From Brachybacterium subflavum (GTDB taxonomy: Bacteria; Actinomycetota; Actinomycetes; Actinomycetales; Dermabacteraceae): 64,000 nt of DNA. The stretch lies in assembly GCF_009299795.1 (NCBI RefSeq), contig NZ_VIGP01000001.1:124001-188000 (forward strand). The letters run 5' to 3'. The translations under genes were made by a program, and so were the position numbers. The notes under the pieces were generated by a model that was given only the letters and a program-made list of their open reading frames with translations, was not told the origin of the DNA and made no database searches. Of this stretch, positions 2,711-57,095 are shown piece after piece (position 1 is the first letter of the stretch; every line of letters starts with the position of its first letter).

Positions 2711-5661
2711 CAGTTCCCTCCCGTGAGCATGCACAGCTGGGCGTAGTCGCTGCGGCCGCAGTGGTCCTCGATGAGGATCCGGCCGTCGGCCCGGGCGAGA
2801 TCGCGCTGGGCGGCCACGGCCTTCTGCCGCGCCCGGTATGGGGCGTCGACGGGGATGCCGGTGTCCTCGAGGAGCTGCCGGCAGCCCAGGGCGACGGTGC
2901 CGGCCGCGATCTCGTCGAGTCGGGCCTGCACGCCCTCGACGAGCCGGCGCCATGCGTCGCCCACGTCCATCGGGCTGCGGCGGTGGGCGTCCAGGGCGCG
3001 GTTCGCGCTGATGAACTCGCCGCTGCGCAGCAGGAAGTAGCCGACGTCGGCCGGGTGCTGAGCATCGGCCGGGGAACCGGGGTCCTCGGCGAGCGACCAG
3101 GCGTAGGACGCCAGCTGGACGGCCGCGCTTGTGTCGAACAGATCGCCGTAGCGGGTGCGGGAGAACGACCACTTGAGGTCGATGACGGTGGGGCTGCCGT
3201 CCGCGTCCTCGGCGTCGAGATCACGGCTGCCGACGAAGGAGACCCCGCGCGGTCCGCTGGCCAGCTGCAGCGTCAGCGGTCGCTCGAATCCGGATTCGGT
3301 GCCGGTGACACGCAGGCCGGCGTCGGCGAGGCCGGCGAAGAGCTCGCGCAGGCTGCGCACCGCCCGGTCCCGGACCTCGGTGCGCTCGAAGGCGCGGCCG
3401 GGCAGGTCCAGCTCGGAGGCGAGCTGGGGGACCAGGGAGTCGAACACCTCGCCGATGCGGCGCGGGTCCGGCGGCTCGAGCGGCGCGCCGCCGAGGCCGG
3501 AGTCCATGCGCTCGTCCACGAGGGCCTCGACGACCGCGTGGACGAGGGTGCCGATCATCCGGGGGCCGGTGGGCAGGGAGGCGACGTGCGCGGGGCGGAT
3601 GCCCAGCGCGTACTCGAGCACCCAGTGGTGCGGGCATTCCAGGAGCGTCTGGGCCTGGGTGAACGACAGCCTCTCGGGAAGCAGGTGGTCCAGGCGGTGA
3701 CCCGCACTGCGGCGGGTGGTGGGCTCGGTGGACAGGTCCTGCAGGTCGGGGGTGCGCACGGAGAGCGTGCGGCCGGCGAGGGACCAGGAGACCCCGTCGA
3801 CCAGCTGCGCGGGGGTGAGGCGGTCCCGCGCCGAGCGCCCCGCCCCGGCCTCGAGGTGGGTGAGCAGACCGCTGGGGGTCGGCTCCTTCTCGAGGCGGCG
3901 TCCGGGCAGCACGGCGATCAGGCGGCTCGCGCCGCGCAGCGCCCGCAGGGCCGCGCCGACATGCAGCGCCGACTCCTGCGCGGGCGGCAGCAGGCGGGCG
4001 CCGAACTCCTCGAGCGTCTGCACTTCGTCCGGGTCCCAGAGCATCGGGGAGGGTAGGGCGTCCTCGGCGGGTCCCCACCACAGCACGGTGCCGCCCTCGG
4101 CATGCAGCTGCGCGGGCCGCGTGGCGACCGACCACAGTGCGACCTCGGCGCGCGCGAGCGGGGAGCGGCCGGCGCCGCCGCAGGCGTCGATGATCTGCTG
4201 GAGGGTGCGGCGGCTCAGCGGGACGCCCGGCTCGAGCATCCCCAGCACCGTGCGCAGCGACGTCACCTGGGACAGGCTCGCGAGCAGATCGCCCTCGCCG
4301 CGGGCGACGGCGCGCAGGCGCTCTGTGAGCAGACCGAGCCGCTCGCCGAGCGCGCCGGGGAGCAGGGCGTCGGCCGACAGCGGGTCGCTGACCAGCCGAT
4401 CGATCCCGCGGGCCGCCTCGAGCGCTCGGCGCTCCCGGTCGCGGGACTCCGCAGGGGCGGTCGCCGCCCTCTCCTCCAGACGCGCGAGGGCGTCCCGCCA
4501 GGCGGGGCCGATGCCGGGCTCGCGGGTGAGGGCGCGCAGCAGCTCGCGGCGCGCGGCGGCGGGGACCAGTCCGATCGGCTCGTCGTCCCGGTGCATCCCC
4601 GGCAGCACGCGCAGGTCCAGCAGGGCCGCGAGCTGATGGACGTCCACCGGTGCGGTCGCGACGTCGAGGAAGAGCCCGAGCACCTGATGATGGGCGCGGT
4701 CCGTCGAGGGATCGACGGCACCGATCGCGGGCATGCCCCGCCGGTGCAGGGCGCGGTCCAGCACGGTGGTGTCGGTCGTGGCGAGGACGCTCAGCGGCCG
4801 GTCGCCGGCTCCCACGGGATCGGCGGCATCGGTCCCGGGGTCCGCGGGAGCGCTGAGGAAGCGGGCGGCGACGTCCGCGGCGCTCCACTCGTCCAGGCAC
4901 TGCACGACCTCGAGGTCGGGCGCCTCCTGAGGGCCGGTGCCTGCGTGGCGCAGGCGCACCCCTGCGGCGTCGAGGAGCTCGAACAGCCGCGGCCACAGTC
5001 CCGGCAGCGCGGTCGGGTACTCGGCGAGGGTGATGACGTCGATCCCCAGCGGCCACGAGGCGTCCAGGGAGTCGAGCTCGGTGAGGGTGTCGACGACCTC
5101 GCGCAGGTCATCGGCGGGTCCGGGGGAGAGGGTTGAGGCACGACCGCCGGGGCCGCTGGTCCCGGGCAAGCCGACGACCGCACGGTGCTCGAGGTCCCGC
5201 ACCGCCGCGAGGCGCTCGGGCAGACGGTGGATCGGCTCCGGCGCGCTCCAGCCGGCCTCGATGCTCGCATCGCGCAGTCGCAGGAGGTGCGCGGCCGTGC
5301 TCCAGGGGTCGACGGCGAAGGAGGGCTCGGGCCAGAATCTGCTGCTGCCGCCGCCGCGATCGGTGCCCCCGGTCGCCCGCTCGGCGATGATCTCCCCGAT
5401 CAGGCGCATGGTCTGGGCGATGCGCACGGCGTGCTCGACGGGGGGATGCGTGAGTGCGAGACGCCCCTGCAGCAGCGCGACGAGACCCCGCGGGCCCAGA
5501 CGCGCATCCGGTGCACCGCCGTCGCGACCCGCGGCGTCGCGGTCGTCCGCCGGGGTGTCGACGCCGCCTGCCGGGCAGCCGGTCGACGTGCCCCCCGCGC
5601 GCCGCGCGGATGCGCTGGCCCAGTCCGCGCCGTCGGCCGTCCATCCGAACTCGATCTCCAT
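2710..5661 (-). CDS. PD-(D/E)XK nuclease family protein (AddB/RecB-like), 983 aa
   Basis: Probable partner of the downstream helicase. The C-terminal third carries a RecB-type nuclease: a lead Cys in LLECPHHW, the histidine segment GTLVHAVVEAL, the core VIDLKWSFS and the helix QLASYAW. Cys residues in LLEC, LGCRQ, DHCGRS and QLCML could form the iron-sulfur staple typical of AddB-type nucleases (inference). The N-terminal two thirds look like an inactive helicase-like scaffold with no Walker A. The ATG at 5661 follows a purine-rich GGAAGGGGG; a -10-like TACTGT lies about 27 bases upstream. It is first in the operon and its stop overlaps the helicase start. Confidence 0.88.
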   Translation of the reverse strand: MEIEFGWTADGADWASASARRAGGTSTGCPAGGVDTPADDRDAAGRDGGAPDARLGPRGLVALLQGRLALTHPPVEHAVRIAQTMRLIGEIIAERATGGTDRGGGSSRFWPEPSFAVDPWSTAAHLLRLRDASIEAGWSAPEPIHRLPERLAAVRDLEHRAVVGLPGTSGPGGRASTLSPGPADDLREVVDTLTELDSLDASWPLGIDVITLAEYPTALPGLWPRLFELLDAAGVRLRHAGTGPQEAPDLEVVQCLDEWSAADVAARFLSAPADPGTDAADPVGAGDRPLSVLATTDTTVLDRALHRRGMPAIGAVDPSTDRAHHQVLGLFLDVATAPVDVHQLAALLDLRVLPGMHRDDEPIGLVPAAARRELLRALTREPGIGPAWRDALARLEERAATAPAESRDRERRALEAARGIDRLVSDPLSADALLPGALGERLGLLTERLRAVARGEGDLLASLSQVTSLRTVLGMLEPGVPLSRRTLQQIIDACGGAGRSPLARAEVALWSVATRPAQLHAEGGTVLWWGPAEDALPSPMLWDPDEVQTLEEFGARLLPPAQESALHVGAALRALRGASRLIAVLPGRRLEKEPTPSGLLTHLEAGAGRSARDRLTPAQLVDGVSWSLAGRTLSVRTPDLQDLSTEPTTRRSAGHRLDHLLPERLSFTQAQTLLECPHHWVLEYALGIRPAHVASLPTGPRMIGTLVHAVVEALVDERMDSGLGGAPLEPPDPRRIGEVFDSLVPQLASELDLPGRAFERTEVRDRAVRSLRELFAGLADAGLRVTGTESGFERPLTLQLASGPRGVSFVGSRDLDAEDADGSPTVIDLKWSFSRTRYGDLFDTSAAVQLASYAWSLAEDPGSPADAQHPADVGYFLLRSGEFISANRALDAHRRSPMDVGDAWRRLVEGVQARLDEIAAGTVALGCRQLLEDTGIPVDAPYRARQKAVAAQRDLARADGRILIEDHCGRSDYAQLCMLTGGN

Positions 5662-7362: not shown

Positions 7363-7385
7363 GTCTCCATTGTGTCGTGCAGGAA

Positions 7386-7443
7386 AAGATATGAGGGTGG
7401 CGAGCCGAGATCCTGCGATCTCTGTTCGCCACCCTCACATCTT
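7386..7443. terminator. Nested stem-loop between band-7 gene and sulfatase
   Basis: Arms of about 19 bases (AAGATATGAGGGTGGCGA on the left, its near-exact complement on the right, two mismatches) enclose a second perfect hairpin, GAGATC-CTGC-GATCTC. The structure lies 39 bases beyond the stop of the band-7 gene, so it probably acts as its terminator. It is also upstream of the sulfatase start and could influence that promoter. Confidence 0.6.
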
Positions 7444-7481
7444 CGAGGCGTTCGGCCCGCCCGGGCGGGCCGCCCGCGGGG

Positions 7482-8624
7482 TCAGCCCTGCTGACCGGGG
7501 TGGGCCCACGGCGGCTGCTGGCCGCCGCCCTGGCCCTGCTGGCCCTGCGCCTGGTCGCGTGCCCGCTGGGCACCGCGCTCGGCGTCGGCCTTGGCCTCCT
7601 GAGCGCGCTGAGCGGCGGCGCGGCGCGCGGCCTCGGCCCGCTGGCGGCGGCTCTCGTCGGCCTGTGCGGCGTCCGCGCCGTCGCCCGCATCGGACGCCTC
7701 CTGGGCGGCCTGCGCCTGGAGCATCGCGGTGCGGATCTCCTCGCCCATCGAGCCGACGGTGCCGGGGTTCGAGGGCAGGAACAGCACGTTGGAGCGGCCG
7801 TTGCGGGCCACGTCCTGCATCGTGTCGAAGTACTGCGTCATCAGCAGCAGCTGCTCGGCGCTGGACTCGATGCCCACCTTGCGCAGCATCTCGTACTGCT
7901 CGGCGATGCCCATGGCGATCGCCTTGCGCTGCGCTGCCACGCCCTCGCCCTGCAGGCGCTTGGACTCGGCCTCCGCCTCGGCCTGGGTGACGCGCTTGAT
8001 CTTGTCGGCCTCGGCGAGGGACTGCGCGGCGACGCGGTCGCGCTGGGCGGCGTTGATCGAGTTCATCGAGTCGCGCACGCGCTGGTCCGGGGAGATGTCC
8101 TGGACCAGGGTGTTGACGATGTTGAAGCCGAACTCGCGCATGCGCTCGCTCAGCGTGTTCTCGACGCTGCGGGCGATGTCGTCCTTCGACTCGAACGCCT
8201 CGTCGAGCTCGAGGCCCGACAGCGCCGAGCGCACCGTGTCGAAGACGTAGGAGCGGATCTGGTTCTCAGGGTTCGACAGCCGGTAGTAGGCGTCGACGAC
8301 CTGGTCCTCCTTGATGACGTACTGCACCGCGACCGGCACCGTGACGAACACGTTGTCCTTGGTCTTGGACTCGATGTTGACCTCGAGCTGCTGGATGCGC
8401 AGCGAGATCGGACGCGTGGTGCTGTCCACGAACGGCGCCTTGACGTTCAGGCCGGGCGTGGCGACGCGCTTGAACTTCCCAAAGCGCTCGACGATCACGT
8501 TCTCCTGCGTGTGCACCGTGAACATGATGCTGGTGCGCAGGCCCCCGAACAGAAGCGCCGCCAGGATGGCCAGGACGACCACCAGGACGACGATCACGAT
8601 GAGGACGGCGATGGCCCCCTCCAT
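7482..8624 (-). CDS. SPFH/band-7 (stomatin/QmcA-like) membrane protein, 380 aa
   Basis: Membrane-anchored scaffold of the stomatin/prohibitin/flotillin family; such proteins form large oligomers in membrane microdomains. Residues ~4-28 form one hydrophobic helix, then the band-7 domain follows (QENVIVERFGKFKRV, then PFVDSTTRPISLR). A long charged coiled-coil region rich in Ala/Glu/Gln/Arg ends in a Gly/Gln/Pro tail. The ATG at 8624 has GAGAGGGG upstream. No NfeD-type partner is adjacent. A second, different SPFH protein occurs at 61755. The specific role is unknown. Confidence 0.88.
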   Translation of the reverse strand: MEGAIAVLIVIVVLVVVLAILAALLFGGLRTSIMFTVHTQENVIVERFGKFKRVATPGLNVKAPFVDSTTRPISLRIQQLEVNIESKTKDNVFVTVPVAVQYVIKEDQVVDAYYRLSNPENQIRSYVFDTVRSALSGLELDEAFESKDDIARSVENTLSERMREFGFNIVNTLVQDISPDQRVRDSMNSINAAQRDRVAAQSLAEADKIKRVTQAEAEAESKRLQGEGVAAQRKAIAMGIAEQYEMLRKVGIESSAEQLLLMTQYFDTMQDVARNGRSNVLFLPSNPGTVGSMGEEIRTAMLQAQAAQEASDAGDGADAAQADESRRQRAEAARRAAAQRAQEAKADAERGAQRARDQAQGQQGQGGGQQPPWAHPGQQG

Positions 8625-14471: not shown

Positions 14472-14661
14472 CGTGCGACTCCTCGTCGTCCCGGGCGGTG
14501 CGCCCGAGCATGATGCCCCGGATTCTCCGGTGCGGGGATCTCCCGCACCCCGCACGCTGGTCCCTGCCCCGAGGGGAGGGTCAAGGCGCTGCCCGAGCGC
14601 GGGAGCGGCAGCGGTCGCGCCCGGGAATGGTGTCGCGCACGAGGCCCCCGCACGGAGCGTG

Positions 14662-14725
14662 CACTACGCGTAGCAGGAGGTCGGGTGACCTCCATATATG
14701 CACGCCGCCCGACCTCTGACTACGC
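14662..14725. repeat. Degenerate palindromic element sharing a 28-bp block with 54206-54233
   Basis: Bases 14662-14689 (containing CTACGCGTAGCAGGAGGTC) are identical to the reverse complement of 54206-54233. Here the right arm has diverged (CCCGACCTCTGACTA), so the hairpin is imperfect, and CTACGCGT reappears at its far edge. It abuts the TAG stop of the SDR gene (14720-14722), so it may terminate that transcript. Confidence 0.75.
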
Positions 14726-15556
14726 GTGGCGCACGGGGTCGCCTTCGCCGCCGCGGGCTTCGCCGCGCCGCATCATCCGGCCCACGGTGGTCGCGACCAG
14801 GCGGGTGGGCAGCACGCGGCGGGTCAGCTGCGCCATGGCCGTGTTCGCCATCCCGGGCACGACGGTCGAGGGCGGATTCCGCCGCTCCAGAGCCTTGAGG
14901 GCGGCTTCGACGACCTCGTCCGGCTCCATGCGCGGCAGGCCGGCCGCGGCCGCTTCTCCTGCGACCTCGAAGAACTCGGTCTTCGCGGGGCCGGGGCAGA
15001 GGGCGAGCACCCGCAGGCCGGCGGAGCGCGACTCCTCCCAGAGCGCCTGGGTGAAGTTCAGGACGAAGGCCTTGGAGGCGCCGTAGGCGGCGAGCCCGGG
15101 GTTGGGCTGGAAGGCGGCGAGGCTCGCGAGGTTCACGAGGATCCCGTTCCCGCTCGCGCGCAGGTCCGGGAGGAAGGTCGTGGTGAGGTCCACGAGCGCG
15201 TCGACGTTCAGGCGCACCATCTCCAGGGTGCGCTCGCGATCGACGTGGTGCAGGGCGCCGGAGTACCCGAAGCCCGCGTTGTTCACGAGCCCGGTGAGCG
15301 TGATGCCGCGCTCGCCGAGGTCGCGGCGCAGGGTCTCCGCGGCGCCCTCGCGGGCGAGGTCCATGGTCAGAGTGGTGACGGTGACGCCGTGGGCGGAGCC
15401 GATCTGCGAGGCGACCTCGGCGAGGCGGTCTGCCCGGCGGGCGACGAGCACGAGGTCGGCGCCGCGGGCGGCCAGCTGATGGGCGAACTCGACGCCCAGG
15501 CCGGAGCTCGCACCGGTCACCATCACGGTCGCGTTCTCGAGGTGCAGCGGGCGCAT
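14720..15556 (-). CDS. Short-chain dehydrogenase/reductase, 278 aa
   Basis: Classical SDR oxidoreductase. It has TGASSGLG near the N-terminus for NAD(P) binding, NNAGFG, the catalytic Ser in LVNLASLAA and the YGASK motif. Arg residues after the first glycine motif (LVARRADRL) favour NADPH. The start at 15556 has AGGA seven bases upstream. Substrate cannot be inferred. The stop codon lies inside the palindromic element described at 14662. Confidence 0.88.
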   Translation of the reverse strand: MRPLHLENATVMVTGASSGLGVEFAHQLAARGADLVLVARRADRLAEVASQIGSAHGVTVTTLTMDLAREGAAETLRRDLGERGITLTGLVNNAGFGYSGALHHVDRERTLEMVRLNVDALVDLTTTFLPDLRASGNGILVNLASLAAFQPNPGLAAYGASKAFVLNFTQALWEESRSAGLRVLALCPGPAKTEFFEVAGEAAAAGLPRMEPDEVVEAALKALERRNPPSTVVPGMANTAMAQLTRRVLPTRLVATTVGRMMRRGEARGGEGDPVRHA

Positions 15557-53393: not shown

Positions 53394-54045
53394 CGCGTCC
53401 GCCGCACCTGCTGCGCCGATCCGCATCGCCCTGGCCGATGACCAGGCGATGCTGCGCTCGGGCCTCGCGGCGCTGCTGCGCCTGGAGGCCGACATCGAGG
53501 TGGTCGGGGAGGCCGCGGACGGCGCCGGAGCGCTCGCCGTCGTCTCCGAGCATCATCCCGACGTGCTGCTGCTGGACGTCCAGATGCCCGCGGGCATCGG
53601 CGCGGACGGCGCGAGCGGCCCGGCCGACGGGCTCGAGGTCGCCGAGCGCCTCCAGGGCTCCGGCACCCGGATCATCGTGCTCACGACCTTCGGCCGCGCC
53701 GGCTACCTGCGCCGCACCCTCGAGGCGGGGGCGGACGGCTTCATGGTCAAGGACGCCCCCGTGGAGCGGCTCGTCGACGCGATCCGCCGCGTCCACCGGG
53801 GACTGCGCGTGGTCGACCCCGAGCTCGCCGCGCAGTCGCTGGCCGCGGGACCGAACCCGCTCTCGGCGAAGGAGACGGATGTGCTGCGTGCCTGCGCCCG
53901 CGGAGGCTCGACGGCCGACGTCGCCGCGCGGGTGTTCCTCTCCGAGGGGACGGTGCGCAACCACGTCTCGAGCGCGATCGGGAAGCTCGGCGTCGGCAAC
54001 CGCGCAGAGGCCGTGCGCCGTGCCACCGACAACGGGTGGCTGTAG
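53386..54045 (+). CDS. NarL/LuxR-family response regulator, 219 aa
   Basis: Receiver domain with acidic pair ADDQ, phospho-acceptor Asp64 (LLLDVQMP), Thr in VLTTFG and Lys in MVKDAP. The C-terminal LuxR-type HTH is LSAKETDVLRACARGGSTAD through VRNHVSSAIGKLG. It likely controls the ABC exporter upstream. Start ATG 53386 overlaps the kinase end. Confidence 0.93.
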   Translation: MLDASAAPAAPIRIALADDQAMLRSGLAALLRLEADIEVVGEAADGAGALAVVSEHHPDVLLLDVQMPAGIGADGASGPADGLEVAERLQGSGTRIIVLTTFGRAGYLRRTLEAGADGFMVKDAPVERLVDAIRRVHRGLRVVDPELAAQSLAAGPNPLSAKETDVLRACARGGSTADVAARVFLSEGTVRNHVSSAIGKLGVGNRAEAVRRATDNGWL

Positions 54046-54171
54046 CGGGAGAAGAATCTCAGCGGCAGGGGAGCCGCCGCGAGCGAGCCGCAGCGGCAGG
54101 AGAGCCGCTATCGGGCGGGCTCCATCACCGTGGCAGATCCGAGGGGTCTCCCGCCAGCCCGTGCAGGCGAT

Positions 54172-54225
54172 GTAGCAGGAGGTCGGGTGACGTGCACATG
54201 TGCACGTCACCCGACCTCCTGCTAC
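54172..54225. repeat. Perfect 54-bp palindrome (27-bp arms, no loop)
   Basis: Both halves are exact reverse complements, beginning GTAGCAGGAGGTCGGGTGAC and centred on CACATGTG. It lies between convergent genes (stops at 54045 and 54265), as a bidirectional terminator would. Bases 54206-54233 match 14662-14689 on the opposite strand, so the element is repeated in the genome. CTACGCGTAG follows at 54222-54231. Confidence 0.85.
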
Positions 54226-54264
54226 GCGTAGTGTGCGGGGGCCGCGGAGCCCCGCCTCGGATCC

Positions 54265-55407
54265 TCAGATCGTGGACGCGAAGGGGTCGAAGTCGACGGG
54301 GACCGTCGGCACCTCGGAGACCGAGCTCTTGACGGTCACGAACTCCTCGCTCGCGGCGGACTCCTCGGCCGAGAGCATGACGTCCAGGACGTGGTAGCCC
54401 AGCTCGCCGCTCGCGACGTGCGGACGGTCCTCGGCGATCGCGCGGACCATGTCCAGCAGGCCCAGGCCGCGGCCGGTGACCGTGCCCTCCTGCGGGATCT
54501 CGATGCGCTCCTGCACGGGCGGCGCCTCGCCGAAGGACTCGAAGGGCTTCACGTAGGAGATCGCGCCCTCGAACATGTTCGGGTCCGGCAGGAAGATCGA
54601 GCCCTCGGTGCCGTGGATCTCGACGATGCCCTGGCGGGCGAGCGGCGAGTCGAAGCTGACCAGCGAGTTCGCCTGCTGCCCGGCCTCGAAGCTCGTGAGC
54701 AGCGAGAGCGTGGAGGGCACCTCGACGGGGAAGGTCTCGCCGGCGCGGTCACCCACCTGGATGGTGCGCTCGAGCTGGGCGCGCAGGCCCATCGCCGCGA
54801 CCTTGTCCACGGTGCCGAACAGGCTCACGAGCGCCGTGATGTAGTACGGGCCGATGTCCAGCAGCGGGCCCGCGCCCTTGGCGAAGAGGAAGCCGGGGTT
54901 CGGGTGGAAGACCTCGGGGCCCTGCCACTGCATGGAGGTCTGGGCGAACAGCGGGGTGCCGATGGTGCCCTTGAGGATCTCGCGCTTGGCGGTCTGGAAG
55001 CCCGGGCCCAGCACCGTGTCGGGTGCGCAGCCCACGCGCAGGCCCTTGGCCTCGGCGTCCTCGAGCAGCTGCGCGGTGGACTCGCGGTCCAGGCCCAGCG
55101 GCTTCTCGGTCCACACGTGCTTGCCGGCGGCGATCGCGCTCGCGGAGACCTCGGCGTGCACGGCCGGGATCGTCAGGTTGACGACGACCTGCACGCCCGG
55201 GTGGTCCAGGACGTCCTGGGCGGTGCCGGCGGCCGGGACGCCGTGCTTGGCGGCCTGGGACTTCGCGCGCTCCACGTCGAGGTCGCCGAGGATCAGGACC
55301 TCGACGTCGGGGAACGAGCCCAGGTTCTCCAGGTAGGTGTCGGAGATGACGCCGACGCCGATGAAGCCGACACCGATCGGGCTGCCGGTGGTGCTGGGGG
55401 TGGTCAT
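54265..55407 (-). CDS. Gfo/Idh/MocA-family oxidoreductase, 380 aa
   Basis: NAD(P)-dependent sugar or inositol dehydrogenase. Rossmann motif VGFIGVGVISDTYL, then the EKP motif (WTEKPLGLD) with the catalytic Lys, and a C-terminal domain with LLDIGPYYI containing the usual DxGxH-like region, here Tyr in place of His. ATGA overlap with the upstream isomerase gene marks an operon. Together they probably convert a sugar or polyol; which one is not visible. Confidence 0.9.
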   Translation of the reverse strand: MTTPSTTGSPIGVGFIGVGVISDTYLENLGSFPDVEVLILGDLDVERAKSQAAKHGVPAAGTAQDVLDHPGVQVVVNLTIPAVHAEVSASAIAAGKHVWTEKPLGLDRESTAQLLEDAEAKGLRVGCAPDTVLGPGFQTAKREILKGTIGTPLFAQTSMQWQGPEVFHPNPGFLFAKGAGPLLDIGPYYITALVSLFGTVDKVAAMGLRAQLERTIQVGDRAGETFPVEVPSTLSLLTSFEAGQQANSLVSFDSPLARQGIVEIHGTEGSIFLPDPNMFEGAISYVKPFESFGEAPPVQERIEIPQEGTVTGRGLGLLDMVRAIAEDRPHVASGELGYHVLDVMLSAEESAASEEFVTVKSSVSEVPTVPVDFDPFASTI

Positions 55408-56966: not shown

Positions 56967-57009
56967 GGGCCGGTCCCGGAGGCCCGTGCCGGTGGGAGGA
57001 TCCCCGCGG

Positions 57010-57095
57010 ATGCTCGGGATGCTCGGGATGCTCGGGATGCTCGGGATGCTCGGGATGCTCGGGGTGCCCGGATGGTCGGGGTGCCCGGATGCCCG
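57010..57095. repeat. 9-bp tandem repeat, six perfect copies plus degenerate tail
   Basis: ATGCTCGGG is repeated six times without change (57010-57063), then continues as degenerate units (GTGCCCGG, ATGGTCGGG, GTGCCCGG). It ends about 18 bases before the -10 of the transporter gene at 57125, so copy-number change would alter upstream promoter DNA. Confidence 0.85.

Follow-up and report, generated by a model that had tools for sequence, protein, structure and literature searches.

The window analysed here is a stretch of 64,000 nt from Brachybacterium subflavum (contig NZ_VIGP01000001.1, positions 124,001-188,000; assembly GCF_009299795.1, 3.99 Mb in 25 contigs, hereafter G000), and a repeat search recovered two strong copies of one palindromic element within it, E1 and E2. 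The core of E1 spans 78 bp (14658..14735) and consists of two 39-bp arms around an AT-rich centre, with 30 of the 39 arm positions complementary. Its neighbour, identified by gene calls and Pfam, is a short-chain dehydrogenase gene on the minus strand (PF00106; 14720..15769) whose TAG stop (14720..14722, minus strand), placed by gene calls and tail comparison, is supplied by the element. The 78-bp core of E2 (54160..54237) has 31 of 39 arm positions complementary and a perfectly complementary inner part. According to gene calls and Pfam, it lies between convergent genes, ~113 bp from the stop of a plus-strand LuxR-type response regulator on its left (PF00072, PF00196; 53386..54045) and ~26 bp from that of a minus-strand Gfo/Idh/MocA-type oxidoreductase on its right (PF01408; 54265..55407). 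From sequence and position-wise composition, E2 also carries an outer box at arm positions 48-54, GGTCTCC at 54145..54151 (plus strand), which on the other side reads GGAGCCC for a consensus GGAGACC (54246..54252, minus strand).

A first-pass annotation of this DNA had reported a 28-base block shared by the two places on opposite strands, and indeed 14662-14689 is the reverse complement of 54206-54233 at 28 of 28 bases; direct reading also confirmed that both places are intergenic palindromes. Its further description of them as lying just after a stop does not apply to E1, in which the dehydrogenase stop falls inside the element. The 20-base core of the block has three sites in the window (14670-14689 and 54172-54191 on the plus strand, 54206-54225 on the minus strand) and gave no match in 100 dinucleotide shuffles with up to 3 mismatches allowed; in a contig database, its single exact match was Brachybacterium halotolerans. 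E1 and E2 share one 69-base direct repeat (81% identity) and one 62-base inverted repeat (85%), and E1 is 89% identical to the family query across 80 bp. The right arm at 14662 had been taken as decayed, giving a direction of evolution. This arm carries GTAGTCAGAGG, which also occurs in E7, E12, E13, F6 and F9 (E, F and H denote copies from B. subflavum, B. halotolerans and genome G013, respectively), and is a regular arm type; since this type recurs and arms vary almost independently, as detailed below, the decay and its direction are unsupported. Elsewhere in the window, about seven 9-base units GGATGCTCG follow each other in a run at 56999-57070.

The whole genome of B. subflavum holds 14 copies, 13 found by a consensus-query search and one (C24:83628) by a single-arm pattern search. 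B. halotolerans (G011) holds 11, including one decayed second copy and one truncated by assembly junk, and G013, which like G005, G007 and G019 is a further genome of the genus, holds four, the family occupying in total ~18 distinct sites across the three genomes. All own copies adjoin at least one gene end under simple gene calling, E3 and E9 having no clear left neighbour. The first-pass reading of a dispersed family rather than independent terminators is thus supported by further copies in this genome and two relatives, beside unrelated genes, and by presence and absence between species. One pair extends well past the palindrome, as E9 (G000, L052 4449-4623) and F5 (G011, L071 4057-4231) share 175 bp at 88% identity although the orthologue of F5 in the own genome is E11, so a longer unit was copied at least once. 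At another B. halotolerans copy (C3:17255, L073 ~4256-4335), the assembly passes at mid-copy into G and C runs, leaving the right arm unreadable; the palindrome may have halted sequencing or assembly there.

Among 38 genomes of the genus, clear copies were found in three (G000, G011, G013) and no match in 34, the remaining genome, G007, giving one weak match that was judged a different palindrome (K1, excluded by eye as shorter and without the outer arm). A sequence model built from 24 copies and run over 396 sampled genomes of the order matched strongly in the same three genomes only. Weak matches (E <= 0.01, best 2.8e-4) were obtained in 24 other genomes; in the 17 that were read, 18-24 of 39 arm positions match, against 27-31 of 39 in four family copies, and 16 of these 17 sit in long GC3-rich reading frames, so that they are taken as chance. 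As the model search scored at most 11 candidates per genome under stricter filters, and as the genus search overlooked E14, F10, F10a and H5, which were recovered later, these absences are those of an incomplete search. In the single-arm pattern search, a pair of oppositely oriented arms at a spacing of 35 bases was seen in every one of the 14 own copies, in 8 of 9 listed for B. halotolerans (in the ninth, F5, the second arm is too changed) and in 4 of 4 in G013; the G013 matches of the genus search, on 2 contigs, are likewise all two-armed. Pattern-match totals were near control counts, and unpaired arm matches are accordingly no more frequent than expected by chance. Searches of 50,697 phage records and 72,556 plasmid records gave no match to E2, against a phage or plasmid origin, and one 21-base pattern had none in viral contigs. 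Rfam, run on seven own loci (L047-L053), returned FMN and TPP riboswitches only, none overlapping the element.

One initial member, H4 of G013, was removed from the family once its counterparts in G011 and G000 proved to have a different, terminator-like hairpin. This hairpin lies behind an unrelated gene in all three genomes (L079 4419-4499 in G013, L162 ~8007-8053 in G011, L169 ~8290-8340 in G000), with a core resembling GGAGGYCGGGTG and without the outer arms. The inner part of the family may descend from such a terminator.

Centred on their dyad, 24 copies align without gaps over 84 columns (an alignment leaving aside H4, K1, F7, which is assembly junk, and the later-found E14, F10, F10a and H5). 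From outside to centre, an arm comprises CGTGCACTWCGCGTAGYMRGAGGTCGGGTSAC, then about seven variable bases and the AT-rich middle, the element amounting to a single end sequence of ~39 bp that is present twice, in inverted orientation. The weaker outer box GGTCTCC, eight bases beyond the arm, is often present, each of its bases (positions 48-54) being found in 19-25 of 30 arms. E7, E8, F1, F2, F10, F10a, E14 and H5, at both of the gene-bracketing loci described below (L051, L068, L162, L163, L169), have in common the centre GTGCTCTATTCGTC, up to single changes, which is scarce elsewhere in the family. No clean target-site duplication was recognised: flanking triplets are identical at 6 of 15 loci against 4.7 expected, base-wise flank matching exceeds shuffles by only ~2 sd, and F4 has GGG on either side.

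A palindrome of this kind could also form a strong hairpin in RNA that, at the end of a gene, terminates transcription or stabilises the mRNA. All four copies that were folded are far more stable than shuffles (z -3.2 to -9.4), the copies lie beside gene ends, and a terminator-like hairpin with a similar core occurs at the H4 site of three genomes. Hairpin selection predicts that the two arms of a copy change together, a prediction that can be compared with arms paired at random. With a single row taken for each locus and H4 excluded, 15 of the 25 rows remained, in which within-copy arm complementarity was 448 of 630 positions, against a mean of 445 (sd 9.9) when right arms were reassigned to other copies, and 797 of 2000 reassignments reached at least 448. 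Over the 24 copies, the paired share (79.3% vs 79.0% shuffled), pairs changed on both sides (13 vs 15.0) and further pair types (32 vs 38.0) did not exceed shuffles. Doubly changed cells (49 vs 42.7, reached by 63 of 500 shuffles) and a covariation score (0.151 vs 0.139, reached by 58 of 500) did so slightly, leaving two of five measures marginally raised and no pattern of compensatory base changes as in a structured RNA. The two innermost positions match within copies more often than shuffled (14 vs 7.6 and 9 vs 5.8), the chosen centre favouring them. A terminator scan of 54000-54400, covering E2 as the sole copy scanned, found no intrinsic terminator with a T-run, the hairpin itself being evident from the folding. 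Moreover, exact sequence and spacing are conserved, which a hairpin does not need. An RNA function as the main constraint is unsupported by the arm reassignment and pairing counts, and we hold this explanation to be decidedly improbable.

The near-independence of the arms instead implies that the palindrome owes its existence chiefly to a consensus common to both arms, each of which resembles a protein-binding half-site. On these comparisons of sequence, it speaks for two putative protein half-sites and against hairpin selection, and argues that what preserves the inverted repeat may be its role as a pair of protein sites more than its folding into a hairpin. To our knowledge, this distinction has seldom been tested for REP- and ERIC-like families.

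Whichever protein would bind these sites, their arms evolve slowly. Summed over seven of 12 orthologous pairs, one per locus, with flanks of 100 bases on each side, changes affect 27 of 448 arm positions and 221 of 1310 aligned positions in the flanks, the arms changing ~2.8 times more slowly; the flanks need 2-54 gap columns and the element none. The lone exception among the seven is F8/H3 (arms 6/64, flanks 17/199). In each of the five pairs outside the sum, the changed share is lower for the arms than for the flanks: E10/H2 (8/64 and 33/198), F3/H2 (8/64 and 40/184), E14/F10 (5/64 and 19/66), E14/H5 (9/64 and 54/179) and F10/H5 (6/64 and 40/187). Such slow divergence implies that copies were kept for some use after insertion, or protected, and suggests a host function beyond mobility that a mobile-element reading alone leaves unexplained. 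Together with the strict spacing and the common consensus of near-independent arms, it is in keeping with a site for a host protein (nucleoid-associated, domain-organising or regulatory) that would bind two large half-sites under selection. Against such a site, the element is clearly present in no more than 3 of the 38 genus genomes and is lacking at matching sites, and the near-identity of copies at unrelated loci, extending to 175 bp for E9/F5, indicates copying and not convergence. This explanation appears to us rather improbable.

At the matching site, E1 is absent in all three relatives examined (G011, G013 and G005). The alignment to G013 breaks off at 14600 and restarts at 14760, that to G011 restarting at 14751, and the G005 site is also element-free; the segment found in the own genome alone (14601..14759) comprises E1, ~57 bp on its left and a few bases on its right. 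E11/F5 is absent from G013, and so is F4, for which the alignment shows a gap of 81 columns bounded by GGG repeats, the flank being otherwise near-identical. The outer box is retained at this F4 site lacking the core, so that loss fits as well as gain, and G005, taken as outgroup, matches the far flank only. To the left of F4, 48 bases present in G011 (L070 ~4237-4285) are missing in G013 and look by eye like a tandem duplication. Conversely, the copy shared by G011 and G013 as F8/H3 is absent from the own genome, where comparison with these two places other sequence and no copy at 7381..7482. The site matching E3 was not found within the ~89 kb of G011 searched. E1, E11/F5, F4 and F8/H3 therefore provide both filled and empty sites, as in miniature inverted-repeat transposable elements (MITEs). 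The extra stretches at filled sites are of unequal length (81 columns for F4, ~145-159 for E1, ~178 for E11) and for this reason fit poorly to one fixed transposition unit.

Some sites differ by whole genes. In G011, two direct copies, of which the left is decayed and which share 92% identity across 99 bp, enclose an esterase gene (PF00756), whereas G000 and G013 have a single copy and no esterase at this site; at E <= 1e-40, the esterase was found only in G011 and G019 among 38 genomes. A second bracketed gene, with a REase_MTES_1575/DUF559 nuclease domain, lies between E7 and E8 in G000, as one open frame (L051 4549-5526), and between F1 and F2 in G011, as two (L068 4311-5318). Entry of the gene along with a second copy and its loss through copy-copy recombination both fit the esterase site; as one copy is present in two of the three genomes, a gain in G011 would take fewer steps. 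The element also encodes the tail and stop of two unrelated genes. The dehydrogenase at E1 ends ..GDPVRHA*, its G011 and G013 versions ending ..GQER*, and the G011 esterase ends ..LRGPVHHA*, its G019 relative ending ..LGVVTGP*; the tails provided by the element are PVRHA* and PVHHA*, respectively.

Gene content was further compared with G013 at ten own sites (E1, E2, E3, E5, E6, E7/E8, E10, E11, E13, E14) and differs at four of them. The E2 site holds a glyoxalase gene in G011 and G013 and about ten bases in G005, the E5 site holds an APH-family gene in G011 and G013, and a GNAT gene lies at the E7/E8 site in G013; of the glyoxalase and APH-family genes, those of G013 were the ones run through Pfam. 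The E6 site has three contents: the element in the own genome (L050 ~4329-4459), a GrpB gene in G011 (L070 5120-5644) and another open frame in G013 (L125 ~1416-1993), acetyltransferase-like by eye. The background is high, since 309 kb contain 27 length differences of 300 bp or more, one of them being E7/E8; this is about one junction in ten assuming one gene per kb, and the excess of gene-content differences at element sites is therefore only suggestive.

These observations bear on a gene-cassette recombination site, at which a tyrosine or serine recombinase would bind the arms and exchange strands at the AT-rich centre, circles of one gene and one site integrating or leaving as in integrons, here at scattered double-stranded sites. 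The esterase between two elements in one genome and the lone element in two others, the rarity of this esterase (2 of 38 genomes at E up to 1e-40), the second bracketed gene and the content differences against G013 at 4 of 10 own sites, including the three contents of E6, speak for this proposal. Ordinary homologous recombination between the 99-bp repeats predicts the same picture, however, and the genes of the relatives at E2 and E5 have no flanking palindrome, nor does E6, where the best matches reach 21-22 of 39 arm positions. Considering as well that content differences are frequent anyway (the 27 in 309 kb noted above) and that no recombinase is linked to the palindrome, we regard such a cassette site as unlikely. 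A related proposal sees in the palindrome the site at which a so far undescribed actinobacterial system would capture genes by recombination. Single genes would be added or removed at scattered double-stranded sites at gene ends, every event leaving or taking one site, which would sometimes provide the last codons and stop of the gene; we consider this proposal distinctly doubtful.

The reading that we prefer, and to which we give an even chance of being correct, is a small non-autonomous mobile element of the MITE, ERIC or YPAL kind, so far found in one Brachybacterium clade. The family is a dispersed, short, non-coding repeat with terminal inverted repeats, in 14, 11 and 4 copies. Each arm would be the binding half-site of a trans-acting transposase or recombinase, and this putative enzyme would put copies in or just behind gene ends; the enclosed gene could then be added or removed when two copies recombine or when a gene enters together with a second copy. 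No autonomous partner with the same ends was noticed in these genomes, G000 and G011 being draft assemblies. The three carrier genomes supply matched sites with no element, one element, or an element on either side of a gene, which makes possible a direct test of whether such repeats merely decorate gene ends or also help to import genes.

The first-pass annotation had spoken of a REP/ERIC-like family and had suggested a check for a RAYT transposase; in its REP form, this would be a GTAG-superfamily REP moved by such an enzyme. The element shares with GTAG REPs and BIMEs their nature of extragenic palindromes near gene ends with a GTAG tetranucleotide beside the stem, as far as the available part of PMC3733652 describes them. 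Nevertheless, the Y1 (RAYT-type) transposase domain PF01797 had no match at E up to 1 in seven of seven genomes, i.e. the own genome and six relatives, the three carriers included, although 10 of 14 control genomes gave one. The Brachybacterium arms are also 39 bp long and the copies few, and GTAG lies inside the palindrome, opposite CTAC, whereas GTAG REPs have stems of 6-13 bp and a terminal, unpaired GTAG; Actinobacteria are not named among the phyla listed with GTAG repeats in the portion of that source available (PMC3733652). Unless every carrier has lost the transposase, a RAYT-dependent REP is consequently hardly credible for these genomes, and from the designation REP/ERIC-like we retain the resemblance to ERIC in kind, setting aside REP, for want of a RAYT and given the 39-bp arms, as well as membership in ERIC itself.

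Other known systems offer partial likenesses. In integrons, a gene lies between two near-palindromic attC sites, one site being left when the gene is missing; bracketing by two elements, with one where the gene is absent, recalls this arrangement, but the Brachybacterium sites are scattered singly and no cassette array was noticed. ERIC is an imperfect palindrome. ERIC/IRU/RU-1 sequences are, like the present element, intergenic, MITE-like and ~100 bp in size, but ERIC is 127 bp long, with TA ends and enterobacterial hosts, in the part of PMC2229807 available. The Brachybacterium element has no TA ends, is G+C-rich and comes from one clade, which sets it outside ERIC. A further parallel is YPAL/RU-2 of Yersinia, which, from the same partial source, is also palindromic, intergenic, without TA ends and not A+T-rich, with filled and empty sites between related species and no named mover (PMC2229807). 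It differs in its length (~168 bp vs 78-108 bp here), its unrelated host and its target duplications of 3-26 bp (PMC2229807), none being established for the Brachybacterium element. A literature search, with most subscription papers outside its coverage, returned no description for this actinobacterial lineage, and small palindromic mobile elements whose mover is not established are described from enterobacteria, Yersinia and Rickettsia in the available text of PMC2229807. We file the element as a new orphan family, a member of neither YPAL/RU-2 nor ERIC, nor of the RAYT-dependent REPs, and working in the manner of the first two.
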